From NCBI GenBank assembly GCA_020061285.1, contig JAGUYQ010000270.1, forward strand, positions 1-5,437: DNA of 5,437 bases, given 5' to 3'. How positions within the stretch are numbered: position 1 is the first letter of the stretch; every line of letters starts with the position of its first letter. The position numbers and the translations under genes were made by a program. The notes beneath the pieces were generated by a model. That model worked only from the letters and a program-made list of their open reading frames with translations, did not search any database and had not been told where the DNA came from. This document shows positions 1,472-5,437 of the stretch, piece after piece. The stretch is from Betaproteobacteria bacterium (lineage in GTDB: Bacteria; Pseudomonadota; Gammaproteobacteria; Burkholderiales; UBA9220).

Positions 1472-1890
1472 CCCTCCGCTCCTTTGCGATAGCGACCTTG
1501 CTGCTCTTCCCATGCCTGGCCTCCTCCGCCCCCCTCGCGGCGGATGACGGCCTGGGGCGCCTGTTCTACTCCCCCCAGGAAAGAACCATGATGAACGCCC
1601 AGCGCAACAGGGATGCCGGCATGCTTACCGGCGGCGAGAAGCTCAGTGTCGATGGCCTGGTCGTGCGCAGCAGCGGCAAGAGCACGGTGTGGCTGAACGG
1701 CGTTCCCAGCCACGAGAACCGGCCTCCCGCCGACATCGCCATCACCCGCCGCCAGGGGCCGGGAGGAAAAGTGCAGCTTCGCCTGCCCGCCAGCGGCCGT
1801 GACGTGGAACTGCAAGTCGGCCAAACCCTCGACGCCACTTCCGGCAAAGTACGGGATGCTTATGACAGCCCTTCAAAACCTGCGGAATAA
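1468..1890 (+). CDS. Small periplasmic PilP/GspC-like protein with Sec signal peptide
   Basis: This encodes 140 residues from ATG 1468, which overlaps the previous stop as ATGA. The start is fixed by a strong AGGAGG at 1456-1461, six bases upstream. An in-frame ATG at 1414 would bury the signal peptide behind 18 extra residues and is rejected. Residues 1-21 form a signal peptide (MTLRSFAIATLLLFPCLASSA) with likely signal peptidase I cleavage after SSA. The cysteine at 16 sits in LFPC, which is not a good lipobox, so this is probably not a lipoprotein, unlike classical PilP. The mature protein begins with a helix (GRLFYSPQERTMMNAQR, about 30-46). A small beta domain follows: LSVDGLVVRSSGKSTVWLNG (59-78), VQLRLPASG (102-110), VELQVGQTLD (113-122), ending GKVRDAY. 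This strand-turn pattern (V-DG-VVRSSG-S-VW-NG ... V--GQ-LD) resembles the homology-region domain of GspC/PilP, which contacts the secretin. The position after PilN- and PilO-like genes fits a periplasmic link to an outer-membrane secretin, which is not in the window. Confidence 0.7.
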   Translation: MTLRSFAIATLLLFPCLASSAPLAADDGLGRLFYSPQERTMMNAQRNRDAGMLTGGEKLSVDGLVVRSSGKSTVWLNGVPSHENRPPADIAITRRQGPGGKVQLRLPASGRDVELQVGQTLDATSGKVRDAYDSPSKPAE

Positions 1891-4800
1891 ACGGCTACCC
1901 GCTGCCCAACGCGGCGCGGCGCTGTTCGTGCTGCTAGTCGCTCTCGGCTTGGCGGCGGCGCTGTTCGTGGGCTATTTGGTGAGGAACTCGGGCAAGCTGG
2001 AAGTGGACGAGGCCTCCGCCACCCTGTTGGCCCAAGCCAAGGACGCCCTGATCGGCTATGCCGTCAGCCCCACCGCCGGTGGACAGCGGCCGGGAGACTT
2101 GCCCCGCCCCGACGCCGCCTCCGAGGGTCCGGGCAACTACGACGGTCATGCCGACGGGGGGTGTCTCGACGTTACCAAGGCCAATGGCCTGCCCCTGATA
2201 GGTGGCGGGCCGGCAAACGGGTCCAACCTGCGCTGCCTCGGGCGCTTGCCCTGGTCCGACCTGGGGATGACCATCCAGGGCGCGTCTGAAAACGACCCCA
2301 CCGGCATCATGCCCTGGTACGCCGTCTCCGCCAACCTGGTGGACCCCCTCTGTCTCACCGTCCTCAATTCCGACGCCACCACCCTGCCCACCCCCGCTTT
2401 CGCCGGTAATTCCTATGCCCAGGCCTGCGCCTCCACCAGCCAGATGACCCACCCCTGGCTGACGGTGCGGGACGCCAACGGCAACGTCATTTCCAATCGC
2501 GTCGCCGTGGTTCTCATCATCCCCGGCGCCCCCCTGGCAGGCCAGAATCGCCCCACCTCGCCGAACCTCGCGGGACCTTCCGCCTATTTGGACAGCGTCA
2601 CAGTCCCCGCCGGCTGCGCCGCCCCCTGCGTGCCCGGCGCCTACAGCAACGCCGACATGGACAACGATTTCATCGTCGGCAGCCAATCTGGCACCTTCAA
2701 CGACAAGGTCCTGTACGTCACCATCGACGAACTGATGGCCGCCGTGGAGAAACGGGTCGCCACCGAGGCAGGCAACGGCTTGGCCAAGTTCTACAATTTC
2801 TGCGGCTTCTACCCCTATCCGGTCAATTTCTTTTCCGATGCCTGCTATACCGGCACCTGTCCCAGCGATGCCGCCCGGACCCAGGGACGCTTCCCCTACA
2901 CGCCCAAGCCCAACGGCGCCGCCGCTTCTTTCCCCGAATGGACCTCGGACTTCGACGCGGCCACGGCGGGGGTGCAGCAAGCCTTGCCCCAATGGTTCCT
3001 CGACAACCGCTGGGACCGGGTGCTGTACTACACGCCGGGCAGCGGCTTCGTTGTCGGCGGCAGCGGAAGCTGCGGCGCGGGCGGCTGCCTCTCCGTGGAC
3101 GGCGCCAGTACGGCACGCTCCCTGTTCTTCACCCCCCGCGGCTACGACGGCGCCACCGCCCGTCCCACCAAGCTGCCGCGGCTGGTGTCCGACTACCTCG
3201 CCACTACCGAGAACAACAACCTGGACACGGCCTTCACCGCCTTGAACACCCTGGAAAAGCTGTACCGCCGCTCCGGCGACACCTCCCCCTACACCCCCTC
3301 CAGCCCCAACCCCGCCTGCACCAACACCACGGGAGGGCTGGTGTTCGGCACCGTGGGCGGCACCACCAACAACTCGACTTCGTCAAACTTCACCACCACC
3401 ACACCCTCCACCGCCTCACAGGTTTCCATCGATACCACCACCGGCGCCATCACCCTGGGCAATACCCATTACGACGCCGGCAATACCGACTCTTGCCAAC
3501 TCTACGCCTGCGTCTGGTACAACAACTCCCTCGCCTTCGGCAACGGCGTCAGCGTCTATTTCAGCTTCGTGGTCAACGACCCCGGCGACGGTTTCACCTT
3601 CGCCGTCATCGACGCCGACCGCAATTCCACCACCAATTGCGGCCAGGGCGGCGAGGACCTCGGCTACTCGGGGGTCAACCTCTGCGCCCAGCCGAGCTTG
3701 CCGTGGAATTTCGCCACCTACCCACCGGTCATCACCTGGGCCGCCAACACCCAATACCGGCAGAACACCTTCATCAAGCCCACCCCCGGCAGCACTCGCA
3801 TCTACATGAGCGGTGACTCCGGCACCAGCGGGGCATCCGCCCCCTCCTGGCCCACCGATTACAGCTCGGTGAACGACAACAGCGTTTCCTACTGGTGGGA
3901 CATGGGCCCCATTCCCATGCCCGCCTGGGCCGCCAAAACCTATTACAACTACAAATATATCTACGTCACGCCCACCCCGCCCAACGGCCGCTTCTACCAG
4001 ACCACCCAGGCCGGCACCAGCGGCGCCTCCCAGCCCGCCTGGCCGACCAACTACGGCACCGTCGCCGACGGCGGCACCCGCTGGCAGGACATGGGTTTTT
4101 TGCCCACCCCGCCGGTCTATTACCCGAAAATCGGCATCGAATTCGACACCTACCGCAACAGCGGCGGCCCCAACTGGGTAGAGGCTTCCCGCAAGATTTA
4201 TTACTCCGGGCGCAACGACCCCAGTTATTCCCACTCCGCCATCATCTACTGGGGAAACAGCCAGGCAAATTACTCGTCCAACATCAACCCCAGCCGCCGT
4301 GAGGATTTCGAGGACAACTACCACGATGCCTCGAACAATACCCTGAAACTGCCCTACTACGACCCCATCAGCCAGCCGCCGACGCAAATCGACTCCCTCT
4401 CATCCGTCGGCCGCATCCACCACGTGCGGGTGGACATCAGCCGCAGCGGGCAGCTTTCCAATGCCAACGGCACCTACCGCAACTACACCACCAAGGTGTG
4501 GATCGTTGCCGAGAACAACGGCACCTACAACAACCGGGGCCGCGGCGACTATAACTTCAACCTGCTGACCAATCCCTGCCTGATCGGCAAGATGCAGAAC
4601 ACCAGCCAGGATTTCGACCCCACCTATACCCGGCCGGCGGCCTGGAGCGCTTCCACCGCCTACGCCAAGAACGACTGCGTCAGCGCCGGCAATCGTGACT
4701 ACATCGCCACCAATGCCGGCACCAGCGGCGCCTTCCAGCCTACCTGGCCGGCGGGGGGAACCAAGCCCTCCAGCGGGCTGACAGTCACGGACGGCACCAT

Positions 4801-5209
4801 CACCTGGCAGGATACCGGCGCCGTCACCTGGACCCCGGTCACCCATTACGCGGACAACGACATCACCTTCCCCACCAACTTCACCGCCTTCAACGACTGG
4901 TGGTACGTCACCAGCGCCGGCACCAGCGACACCAGCGAACCGAACTGGAAATATTCCGGCACCACCAACGACGGCAGCGGCGGCGGCAAGGTCCAGTGGA
5001 AGTACGGCGGACCCATTTTCGGCACCAACCCGGCCAATACCGCCGTCATGTCGGATACGGTCAAGATATACGACATCATGGGCCAATCCCCCTACCCCCG
5101 CGTGGACCTGGGCGAGGCCTTCAAGAACTTCCGCTTCGGTTTCACCCAGGGCCAGGGCGGGGTCAGCCAAAGCCTGGTCATCCAGGGGATGAAGGCCAAT
5201 CTTAGGTGA
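1862..5209 (+). CDS. Giant PilX/GspK-type prepilin-like protein with interrupted L-type lectin domain (putative pilus adhesin)
   Basis: This encodes 1115 residues from ATG 1862, with GGGA at 1853-1856 five bases upstream. ATG 1856 is a possible alternative adding two residues; GTG 1799 is unlikely. It overlaps the previous gene by 29 bp. Residues 1-18 (basic, ending QRG) plus the hydrophobic helix 19-40 look like a prepilin with cleavage at G18/A19, but position +5 is Val instead of Glu, as in PilX/GspK-type minor subunits. LAQAKDALIGYAVS (56-69) continues the pilin helix; RPGDLPRPD, GRLPWSDLGM (127-136), NDKVLYVTIDELM (280-292) and PQWFLDNRWDRVLYY (376-390) follow. From about 504 to the end there is an L-type lectin: GDGFTF (575-580), GYSG (601-604), IGIEFDTYRN (757-766), NDPSYSH (785-791), HHVRVDIS (853-860) and FRFGFTQGQGG (1090-1100). 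Two pairs of W/AGTSG modules interrupt it at about 621-746 and 926-1050. There are 18 cysteines, most in close pairs, which suits an exported disulfide-bonded protein. The inferred role is a glycan-binding adhesin carried by a (pseudo)pilus, possibly at its tip. The coding call is certain, the lectin call strong and the adhesin role inferred. Confidence 0.8.
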   Translation: MTALQNLRNKRLPAAQRGAALFVLLVALGLAAALFVGYLVRNSGKLEVDEASATLLAQAKDALIGYAVSPTAGGQRPGDLPRPDAASEGPGNYDGHADGGCLDVTKANGLPLIGGGPANGSNLRCLGRLPWSDLGMTIQGASENDPTGIMPWYAVSANLVDPLCLTVLNSDATTLPTPAFAGNSYAQACASTSQMTHPWLTVRDANGNVISNRVAVVLIIPGAPLAGQNRPTSPNLAGPSAYLDSVTVPAGCAAPCVPGAYSNADMDNDFIVGSQSGTFNDKVLYVTIDELMAAVEKRVATEAGNGLAKFYNFCGFYPYPVNFFSDACYTGTCPSDAARTQGRFPYTPKPNGAAASFPEWTSDFDAATAGVQQALPQWFLDNRWDRVLYYTPGSGFVVGGSGSCGAGGCLSVDGASTARSLFFTPRGYDGATARPTKLPRLVSDYLATTENNNLDTAFTALNTLEKLYRRSGDTSPYTPSSPNPACTNTTGGLVFGTVGGTTNNSTSSNFTTTTPSTASQVSIDTTTGAITLGNTHYDAGNTDSCQLYACVWYNNSLAFGNGVSVYFSFVVNDPGDGFTFAVIDADRNSTTNCGQGGEDLGYSGVNLCAQPSLPWNFATYPPVITWAANTQYRQNTFIKPTPGSTRIYMSGDSGTSGASAPSWPTDYSSVNDNSVSYWWDMGPIPMPAWAAKTYYNYKYIYVTPTPPNGRFYQTTQAGTSGASQPAWPTNYGTVADGGTRWQDMGFLPTPPVYYPKIGIEFDTYRNSGGPNWVEASRKIYYSGRNDPSYSHSAIIYWGNSQANYSSNINPSRREDFEDNYHDASNNTLKLPYYDPISQPPTQIDSLSSVGRIHHVRVDISRSGQLSNANGTYRNYTTKVWIVAENNGTYNNRGRGDYNFNLLTNPCLIGKMQNTSQDFDPTYTRPAAWSASTAYAKNDCVSAGNRDYIATNAGTSGAFQPTWPAGGTKPSSGLTVTDGTITWQDTGAVTWTPVTHYADNDITFPTNFTAFNDWWYVTSAGTSDTSEPNWKYSGTTNDGSGGGKVQWKYGGPIFGTNPANTAVMSDTVKIYDIMGQSPYPRVDLGEAFKNFRFGFTQGQGGVSQSLVIQGMKANLR
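1916..1981 (+). other. Prepilin-like hydrophobic helix of the giant protein (residues 19-40)
   Basis: The codons encode AALFVLLVALGLAAALFVGY and two further residues, directly after basic residues and QRG. This has the length and position of a type IV pilin N-terminal helix, which would serve as membrane anchor before assembly. The usual Glu at +5 is replaced by Val23, which in GspK/PilX-like subunits is compatible with a tip or minor position. Confidence 0.75.
3371..3721 (+). other. L-type lectin domain, first segment (residues 504-620)
   Basis: Ser/Thr/Asn-rich strands lead to VSVYFSFVVNDPGDGFTFAV (563-582) and GQGGEDLGYSG (594-604). GDGFTF corresponds to the conserved A/G-D-G-x-x-F loop of L-type lectins, whose Asp (here D576) contacts the bound sugar. 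GG..LGY.G is the usual next motif in bacterial L-type lectins. The cysteine pairs 545/550 and 593/608 could be disulfides. The segment ends where the first module pair begins. Confidence 0.75.
3722..3910 (+). repeat. W/AGTSG module 1 (residues 621-683)
   Basis: First of four related modules of about 60 residues. It starts at ITWAANTQYRQNTFIKP, has the core SGTSGASAPSWPTDY (653-667) and ends VSYWWDMGP. It is the most divergent copy at the core start (S instead of A before GTSG). It lies between the GYSG and EFDTY motifs of the lectin, so it is an insertion in that domain. Confidence 0.8.
3911..4099 (+). repeat. W/AGTSG module 2 (residues 684-746)
   Basis: Directly follows module 1 with no linker. 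It runs from PAWAAKTYYNYKYIYVTPT through NGRFYQTTQAGTSGASQP to WPTNYGTVADGGTRWQDMG. This copy is closest to the consensus W..xT.Y....V.P..NG..Y..T.AGTSG..QP.WPT..G..V.DG...W...G, which is also found as tandem units in phage tail and bacterial surface proteins. Confidence 0.82.
4100..4636 (+). other. L-type lectin domain, middle segment (residues 747-925)
   Basis: After module 2 the lectin fold resumes with YYPKIGIEFDTYRN (753-766), NDPSYSHSAIIYWGN (785-799), a polar stretch with several Asp/Asn, then HHVRVDISR (853-861) and YTTKVWIVAENNG (875-887). In L-type lectins these are the metal-site strand, the His strand, and the hairpin H-V-x-I/V-D followed by the V-W/Y-V strand. The segment ends around CLIGKMQNTSQDFDPTYTRP, where the second module pair enters. 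Confidence 0.75.
4139..4234 (+). other. ConA-type metal-binding site (E760, D762, Y764, N766, D786, H791)
   Basis: Residues EFDTYRN and DPSYSH give E-x-D-x-Y-x-N and D-x4-H, with the same internal spacings as concanavalin A ligands E8, D10, Y12, N14 and D19, H24. In ConA these bind Mn2+ and Ca2+ and order the sugar site. The only difference is the N-to-D distance: 20 residues here against 5 in ConA, i.e. a 15-residue loop insertion (SGGPNWVEASRKIYYSGRN region). The motif match is direct; metal binding is inferred. Confidence 0.72.
4637..4819 (+). repeat. W/AGTSG module 3 (residues 926-986)
   Basis: Runs from AAWSASTAYAKNDCVSAGN through RDYIATNAGTSGAFQPTWP to GLTVTDGTITWQDTG. At DNA level it shares the 18-base core gccggcaccagcggcgcc with module 2 (4715-4732 and 4010-4027), pointing to duplication within this gene or recent exchange. 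It carries the only cysteine in any module (C939). Confidence 0.82.
4820..5011 (+). repeat. W/AGTSG module 4 (residues 987-1050)
   Basis: Follows module 3 directly: VTWTPVTHYADNDITFPT, then WWYVTSAGTSDTSEPNWKY, then GGGKVQWKYGGP. The core keeps AGTS and EP.W but has D for G after GTS, and the V.DG motif is replaced by a Gly/Ser-rich turn. This is the most degenerate copy at its end. Confidence 0.75.
5012..5206 (+). other. L-type lectin domain, closing segment (residues 1051-1115)
   Basis: After module 4, VKIYDIMGQSPYPRVDLGEA leads to FKNFRFGFTQGQGGVSQSLV (1087-1106) and the C-terminus IQGMKANLR. The pattern .V.FGFT...GG..Q...I.. matches the last strands of L-type lectins (V-x-V-G-F-(S/T)-A-x-T-G...), whose final strand returns to pair with the first. 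This shows that modules 3-4 lie inside the lectin rather than after it. Confidence 0.68.
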
Positions 5210-5229: not shown

Positions 5230-5437
5230 ATGCGAACGAACAGGAAACCCGACCGCCCCATGCACGGCTTCACCCTGGTGGAAATGGCCATCGTGCTGCT
5301 CATCATCGGCCTGCTCCTGGCCGGGATGCTCATGCCCCTCGGCGCCCAGGTTGACCAGCGCAAATACAGCGAAACCAAGAAGGCCATGGACGAAATCAAC
5401 CAGGCCCTCCTCGGCTTCGCCGTCATCAACGGCTTCC
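5230..5437 (+). CDS. Type IV prepilin / pseudopilin, 3'-truncated by window edge
   Basis: ATG at 5230 opens 69 complete codons that run off the window end. A GGAAAAA tract from 5218 supplies a moderate ribosome site about eight bases upstream, 20 bp after the previous stop. The leader MRTNRKPDRPMHG is basic and ends in the classic cleavage site G13/F14, followed by FTLVEMAIVLLIIGLLLAGM, with Glu at mature position +5 and a hydrophobic assembly helix. The class III signal would be cut and N-methylated by a prepilin peptidase (PilD/GspO). After the helix, QRKYSETKKAMDEINQALLGFAV continues the amphipathic helix. Its ALLGFAV segment matches in place and kind the DALIGYAV segment of the large upstream protein, suggesting the two subunits co-assemble. 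The internal ATG at 5260 would leave only MHG before the site, with no basic charge, so it is rejected as the start. Whether this is a major or minor pilin cannot be told from the fragment. Confidence 0.93.
   Translation, partial: MRTNRKPDRPMHGFTLVEMAIVLLIIGLLLAGMLMPLGAQVDQRKYSETKKAMDEINQALLGFAVINGF

Follow-up and report, generated by a model that had tools for sequence, protein, structure and literature searches.

The window, the stretch of 5,437 nucleotides analysed here, forms part of an apparent operon whose genes all read from left to right. It contains an intact open reading frame at 1862–5209 on the forward strand, with an ATG start, no internal stop and 1,115 codons, which encodes a pilin-like subunit with a lectin, hereafter the lectin-pilin. 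Upstream on the same strand lie genes for an MshI-like assembly protein (3–836, its 5′ end outside the window), an MshJ-like assembly protein (833–1471) and an MshK-like protein (1468–1890), names that were assigned by position. In blastp comparisons, these genes matched their syntenic counterparts in two relatives' loci, L002 from a Methylophilales MAG and L001 from a betaproteobacterial MAG (E of 9e-19 and 4e-13 for MshI, 2e-22 and 3e-14 for MshJ, 9e-11 and 5e-17 for MshK, respectively). The start of the lectin-pilin frame lies within the 3′ end of the MshK-like gene, which stops at 1890. Downstream (5230–5437, forward strand) follows a neighbouring pilin with a glutamate at position 5 (Glu5, GFTLVE), which is cut by the window end, scores above the N_methyl cut-off and shares 58% identity over 57 residues with the L001 pilin. 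All four genes flanking the lectin-pilin match those of L001 by blastp, in the same order. A GTG at 1799, in frame and upstream of the ATG at 1862, is a further possible start, with which the leader would be longer. Scanning the window for promoters and terminators yielded nothing that exceeded shuffled sequences.

At the N-terminus, we found a putative prepilin leader (residues 1–18, 1862–1915, forward strand), basic and ending in QRG, and an alpha-1 helix (residues 19–68, 1916–2065, forward strand) whose first part is hydrophobic; both structural models place a helix at residues 17–68. The 22 residues after QRG are mostly hydrophobic, and LAQAKDALIGYA occurs at residue 56. The original prediction had started from these features, and they are present in the reading frame, with the same leader pattern recurring in relatives; a basic leader ending in glycine and a hydrophobic alpha-1 helix are also what is expected of a modular type IV pilin. 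Judging by homology and context, the leader would be cleaved at G18. No IPR012902/N_methyl match was reported for the query in the Pfam search (limit E 10, with HMMER filters dropping most matches above 0.1), and neither Pfam nor NCBIfam returned a GspK family match.

The residue at position +5 of the helix is Val, not Glu. The lack of Glu is shared by all family proteins scored: Glu was found at +5 in 0 of 109 (query included), with Val, Ile, Ala or Leu at that position in 98 of them. The count began with 137 family proteins including the query, 28 of which had no prepilin-like site under the filter and were omitted, owing to truncated starts or to a K, R or D within the tail, where Glu was permitted. 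A few of the scored sites are out of register by at least one residue (for example in P0076, P0102 and P0135), and the correct register likewise shows no Glu. Type IV filaments are described as having a tip complex capped by a subunit without Glu5 (PMC10191384, PMC9934059), so the lectin-bearing subunit would itself be the cap, and the absence of Glu5 predicts a filament-capping position for it. An unlikely alternative is a modular minor pilin that sits along the shaft, or is left in the inner membrane, and displays its lectin laterally. A location in the filament body is considered possible for modular pilins if the linker is flexible enough (PMC8179133), and residues 447–506, which link stem and lectin, mostly have pLDDT values below 50 in the full-length model; however, the bulk of the protein and the lack of Glu5 throughout the scored family, a mark of cap subunits, argue against such a placement.

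In the capping minor pilin that we favour, the stem of about 490 residues looks like an internal duplication of the neighbouring pilin's head. Aligning the profile of residues 45–287 with that of residues 282–488 in hhalign gave a probability of 98.5 (E 2e-15), whereas ten controls with shuffled columns did not exceed 0.5. Nine Glu5 pilins, encoded by neighbouring or nearby genes, have heads that matched the first half of the stem at 99.2 (E 8e-20) and the second at 95.2 (E 3e-8), with controls at or below 3.5; these nine were chosen by position and by a motif containing Glu5, which is why all of them carry it. A pilin-type globular head was thus found in each half, with copy 1 at residues 57–287 (2030–2722, forward strand) and copy 2 at residues 288–487 (2723–3322, forward strand). 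As the halves resemble each other and both resemble the neighbouring pilin heads, the stem would consist of one pilin helix with two heads in series. A model of residues 1–488, built from 88 sequences, was of fair to good quality (mean pLDDT 78.9, pTM 0.82); its N-terminal helix spans 52 residues. Compared with the PDB, this model found no usable structural match, and the pilin nature of the stem is therefore a matter of profile homology to its neighbours and not of a fold match.

The C-terminal half contains an L-type lectin in three parts, all on the forward strand: a first part at residues 504–607 (3371–3682; GDGFTF and GYSG), a middle part at residues 753–886 (4118–4519; predicted metal ligands E760, D762, N766, D786 and H791) and the last strands at residues 1056–1115 (5027–5206; FRFGFTQGQGG), where the model has strands at 1060–1070, 1089–1097 and 1103–1114. 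The six ordered motifs on which the lectin had been proposed each occur once, in order, namely GDGFTF at 575, GYSG at 601, EFDTYRN at 760, DPSYSH at 786, HHVRVDIS at 853 and FRFGFTQGQGG at 1090. Because this ordered pattern recurs in relatives and the predicted structure is a ConA-like beta-sandwich of the L-type, we do not regard it as a chance occurrence. The lectin supplies the extra non-pilin module of a modular type IV pilin, and, with the hhalign matches of both stem halves to pilin heads, the proposed fusion of a pilin-like subunit to an L-type lectin is supported.

Weighing against the favoured reading, none of the sequence searches assigned the query itself to an established lectin or pilin family. 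The full-length model had low overall confidence (mean pLDDT 57.3), Foldseek gave no match at E ≤ 0.001 and, as noted, the stem had no usable counterpart in the PDB. The legume-lectin profile that had been suggested as a check, Pfam Lectin_legB, did not match the query; one relative, P0031, passes its cut-off. In Pfam, NCBIfam and PDB sequence searches, no hit of the query exceeded the cut-off, the only Pfam hit being CBM_5_12, below its cut-off, and NCBIfam and PDB returning no matches. PDB profile searches with A6 and A5 found four weak chains and one, respectively, from antibodies or unrelated proteins.

Conservation was counted in 33 lectin-bearing rows including the query, after exclusion of P0002, whose tail is not a lectin, from 34 aligned rows. 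Residues E760, D762 and H791 are present in 33/33 rows, D786 in 28/33 and N766 in 12/33; we take these five to be the metal-ligand positions of L-type lectins. The query thus has the E-x-D ... D ... H pattern of Ca/Mn ligands (E760, D762, D786, H791), equivalence being assigned by motif. Residue 576, presumably the sugar-ligand position of legume lectins, is Asp in the query and in just 5 of the 33 rows overall. The variability of position 576, the presence of N766 in only 12/33 rows and the interruption of the domain by large insertions would suit a lectin fold that has lost sugar binding and serves as a structural or protein-binding cap. We rate this as rather improbable, as the query itself retains both D576 and N766, E760, D762 and H791 are invariant in the 33 rows, and the nested repeats also resemble CBM5/12 modules, with scores under the cut-off.

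These repeats, four in number and about 65 residues each, have a core such as AGTSGxxxPxW, with GTS motifs at 654, 718, 953 and 1020. Repeats 1 and 2 (residues 622–752, 3725–4117, forward strand) separate the GYSG motif from EFDT; repeats 3 and 4 (residues 923–1053, 4628–5020, forward strand) precede the last lectin strands. In pairwise alignments, 5 of the 6 repeat pairs beat all 300 shuffles, while pair 1–4 fails (51 vs 62 for the best shuffle). The Pfam CBM_5_12 match stays below the cut-off of 26.2 bits, both for the query (17.6 bits) and for repeat 3 alone (22.1 bits, E 1.5e-4). PHROG 20658, labelled head decoration, matches both repeat pairs in four stretches (E 2.3e-15); a phage origin of the repeats is not claimed, because the whole protein had no match in the phage collection and repeats 1–2 found a single weak record in annotated phage genomes (E 3e-4). 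The plasmid collection likewise gave no match to the lectin-pilin. GC content, at 65.6 and 65.9% in the repeats, is above that of the surrounding lectin parts (57.7–61.1%) and similar to that of the stem (67.0%), and is ambiguous. Among the 136 other family proteins, P0041 and P0044 have one such repeat motif, placed in the stem.

Comparison of relatives suggests that the stem is kept while end pieces are swapped, the alternatives being none, a lectin or another tail. P0002–P0005 align over 42–47% of the query length, corresponding to the stem, at 52–55% identity; their tails are GNDxI-type repeats in P0002, a different domain in P0003 and a more divergent lectin in P0004 and P0005. A lectin tail was not seen in P0006–P0008 or in L001, and most family members examined have no lectin. 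Lectins without large inserts occur in P0016 and P0025–P0028, and other inserts exist, with P0018 weakly matching an endosialidase beta-barrel profile and P0013 matching head-decoration and tail-fibre PHROGs (E down to 2.8e-39). An open frame of at least 700 amino acids was present in 8 of the 102 family genes that could be placed in genomes, and a large tail is therefore the minority state.

The gene order around the lectin-pilin looks like that of an MSHA-type locus. In L001, it runs from an MshM-like ATPase through MshL, a TPR protein in the MshN position, a GspE/MshE ATPase, GspF/MshG and three genes to the family subunit and a Glu5 pilin; L002 keeps this order until its contig end, which falls inside the subunit of the lectin-pilin family. 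According to a published model, MshL, MshE, MshG and MshM are mandatory for MSHA and mshA is a loner (PMC6668835). The four mandatory components were found by profile or position in the relatives' loci, the window being too short for them, and 8 of the ten regions examined had a recognisable MshL; of these ten, L041 is cut by a contig end and L037 has genes hidden by the longest-frame rule. That the protein is instead a pseudopilus subunit of a T2SS-like machine, its lectin recognising a substrate or envelope partner and not an external glycan, appears very unlikely. The L001 ATPase and platform protein do score best against GspE and GspF, and the top NCBIfam match of the neighbouring pilin is GspG, all below cut-off; against this, the L001 secretin exceeds the MshL cut-off (TIGR02519, 252.8 vs 250.2 bits), the ATPase carries an MshE-related c-di-GMP motif above cut-off (NF053729, 68.1 vs 38 bits), and the TPR protein occupies the position of MshN.

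Among 200 sampled genomes of L001's order, 108 matched the A2 profile, some shorter genes among them possibly being ordinary pilins, and MshL was found at E ≤ 1e-40 in 127 genomes of the same sample (85 above cut-off). We placed the family gene in 102 of the 108 genomes, taking the best place in each and omitting six with just a short N-terminal match or an unlisted place. Of these genes, 69 follow a listed MshL of the same strand at a distance of 5.0–8.2 kb, and 33 have no listed MshL near. Open frames shorter than 400 amino acids account for 24 of the 102, a group that may include single-headed pilins, which the profile detects as well. A lectin profile identified four lectin-bearing genomes among the loci examined (G151, G021, G155 and G188), all within the 69.

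The domain DUF6701, which we take to be the C-terminal domain of MshQ, had no Pfam match in the query and is present in 47 of the 200 sampled genomes (53 places from 58 rows, five secondary fragments having been omitted). There are more than 150 MshL places; among the 150 listed, 69 have a lectin-pilin family gene within 13 kb and 38 have DUF6701. The two never occur together at these places, and 43 have neither, a number in which contig breaks may hide some genes. Independent occurrence would, by simple arithmetic, give about 17 shared places. In 25 genomes, both kinds of locus are present, one of each. Orthology of the lectin-pilin with MshQ was considered and rejected, as the query is devoid of DUF6701 and DUF6701 genes lie at separate loci. 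In Vibrio cholerae, MshQ is the putative MSHA adhesin, and cells without it have less MSHA on their surface (PMC7096442). Given this role and the lack of shared places, we tentatively assign the family to an MSHA-type system of its own, where the function of MshQ may fall to the cap pilin. The available text of PMC6668835 mentions no second MSHA type, and minor pilins are left out of its phylogenies.

Drawing on the computed evidence of the reading frame, the lectin fold, the homology of the stem halves, the absent Glu5 and the gene order, we consider it likely that the protein is a minor pilin that lacks Glu5 and caps an MSHA-type type IV pilus, with a duplicated head and a C-terminal L-type lectin. 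In this mechanism, prepilin peptidase would cut the leader after G18 and the alpha-1 helix would pack into the growing filament, where, without Glu5, no further subunit would fit above the lectin-pilin, leaving it at the tip. The two serial heads would form a stalk holding the lectin sandwich outwards, and the lectin with its nested CBM5/12-like repeats would attach to another cell or to a surface by binding a polysaccharide or glycoconjugate there, on a pilus extended by a c-di-GMP-responsive MshE-like ATPase. Besides the search results above, several observations speak against this reading: Asp at 576 occurs in few rows, S. sanguinis has its lectin and cap roles on different pilins, 33 of the 102 placed genes have no listed MshL near, and most family members examined have no lectin. 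We infer the tip position, the single copy per filament and the stalk arrangement from homology and context; the same holds for glycan binding, for the glycan's type and for c-di-GMP control. The pilus thus probably carries its own glycan hook.

To a wider proposal, we give slightly less than even credence: Betaproteobacteria of L001's order may have a second MSHA-type pilus, often beside an MshQ-type locus, in which a Glu5-less cap replaces MshQ. The double head would then be a socket for interchangeable end pieces (an L-type lectin, other domains, a repeat tail or none), which gain binding repeats, and the filament-starting cap would itself be the adhesin, in a locus that has neither a PilY1 nor an MshQ protein of its own. 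A 2023 review does not include MSHA pili in its table of components, considering them insufficiently characterised (PMC10191384); the lectin-pilin family provides a defined candidate for the MSHA pilus tip, and exchange of one C-terminal domain suggests a route by which a filament tip could change specificity.

Searches of the literature on lectin pilins, modular pilins, MSHA-like systems, Glu5-less or duplicated pilins, MSHA minor pilins and MshQ did not find the family described in titles or abstract openings among the matches listed. Grafting a lectin module onto a pilin is a principle already known, from PilC of Streptococcus sanguinis and from a survey of modular pilins. PilC is a filament-borne modular pilin whose ConA-like lectin binds glycans (PMC9934059), and like the lectin-pilin, it combines a class III leader, a pilin moiety and a C-terminal ConA-like lectin in one polypeptide. 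However, PilC belongs to a Gram-positive type IV pilus; its pilin moiety contains Glu5 and is unusually short, its sandwich is galectin-like and it also has an Ig-like module (PMC9934059), whereas the lectin-pilin has no Glu5, a duplicated pilin head, an L-type sandwich with nested repeats and an MSHA-type locus with a secretin. In S. sanguinis, PilA is the pilin without Glu5 (PMC9934059); as PilC has Glu5, the lectin and cap roles sit on separate pilins there. The survey of Raynaud et al. (2021) counts over 1,200 modular pilins, distributed among 264 architectures, with functional modules on pilins, lectin-like ones included, in monoderms and diderms, all detected by the N-terminal IPR012902 motif (PMC8179133); the lectin-pilin is of the same general design and is expected to lie outside this set, presumably because no N_methyl match was reported for it. 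It shares with MshQ of V. cholerae the status of an MSHA-operon protein with a proposed adhesive role, while differing from it in domain content (DUF6701). With the GspK and PilK cap subunits, it shares the absence of Glu5; GspK has an alpha-domain inserted in the pilin sheet (PMC8179133), whereas the head of the lectin-pilin seems to be duplicated in tandem. The fold and the E-x-D ... D ... H pattern are those of L-type lectins, such as legume lectins and the Methanocaldococcus jannaschii protein 7elv, but here CBM5/12-like repeats, in two pairs, break up a sandwich that is also joined to a pilin-like stem. What is new is the combination of a Gram-negative, MSHA-type setting with a Glu5-less, double-headed stem and an L-type lectin containing nested repeats.

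Lectin-bearing relatives of the query, mostly of about 1000 residues (P0009–P0022), retain the same lectin and carry inserts that differ from those of the query, and several of them come from sources named as Rhodocyclales or Rhodocyclaceae. Among these proteins, P0013 showed strong matches to head-decoration and tail-fibre PHROGs, and P0018 a weak match to a phage endosialidase beta-barrel profile. In P0041 and P0044, also of the cap family, one AGTSG-type motif was observed at residue 327, within the pilin stem and outside the lectin, and the repeat may therefore move from site to site. On a stem common to the query, P0002 carries a GNDxI-type repeat tail (residues ~560–800), perhaps a beta-solenoid.

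Downstream of a lectin-bearing gene in genome G188 (contig C8, ~216818), we observed a 1470-codon open frame whose N-terminus matched the pilin module, possibly a second giant pilin. Open frames of 1411–1956 residues were also seen in G133 (C38), G060 (C110) and G037 (C38), where the family profile A2 matched in the insert region only, leaving the pilin stem unmatched.

Among the matches listed, 43 of the 150 MshL secretin places had neither DUF6701, the MshQ-type marker, nor the cap family. Genome G001 contains two separate MSHA-type loci (contigs C31 and C39), one with DUF6701 and the other with the cap family, and the same pairing was observed in 24 further sampled genomes.
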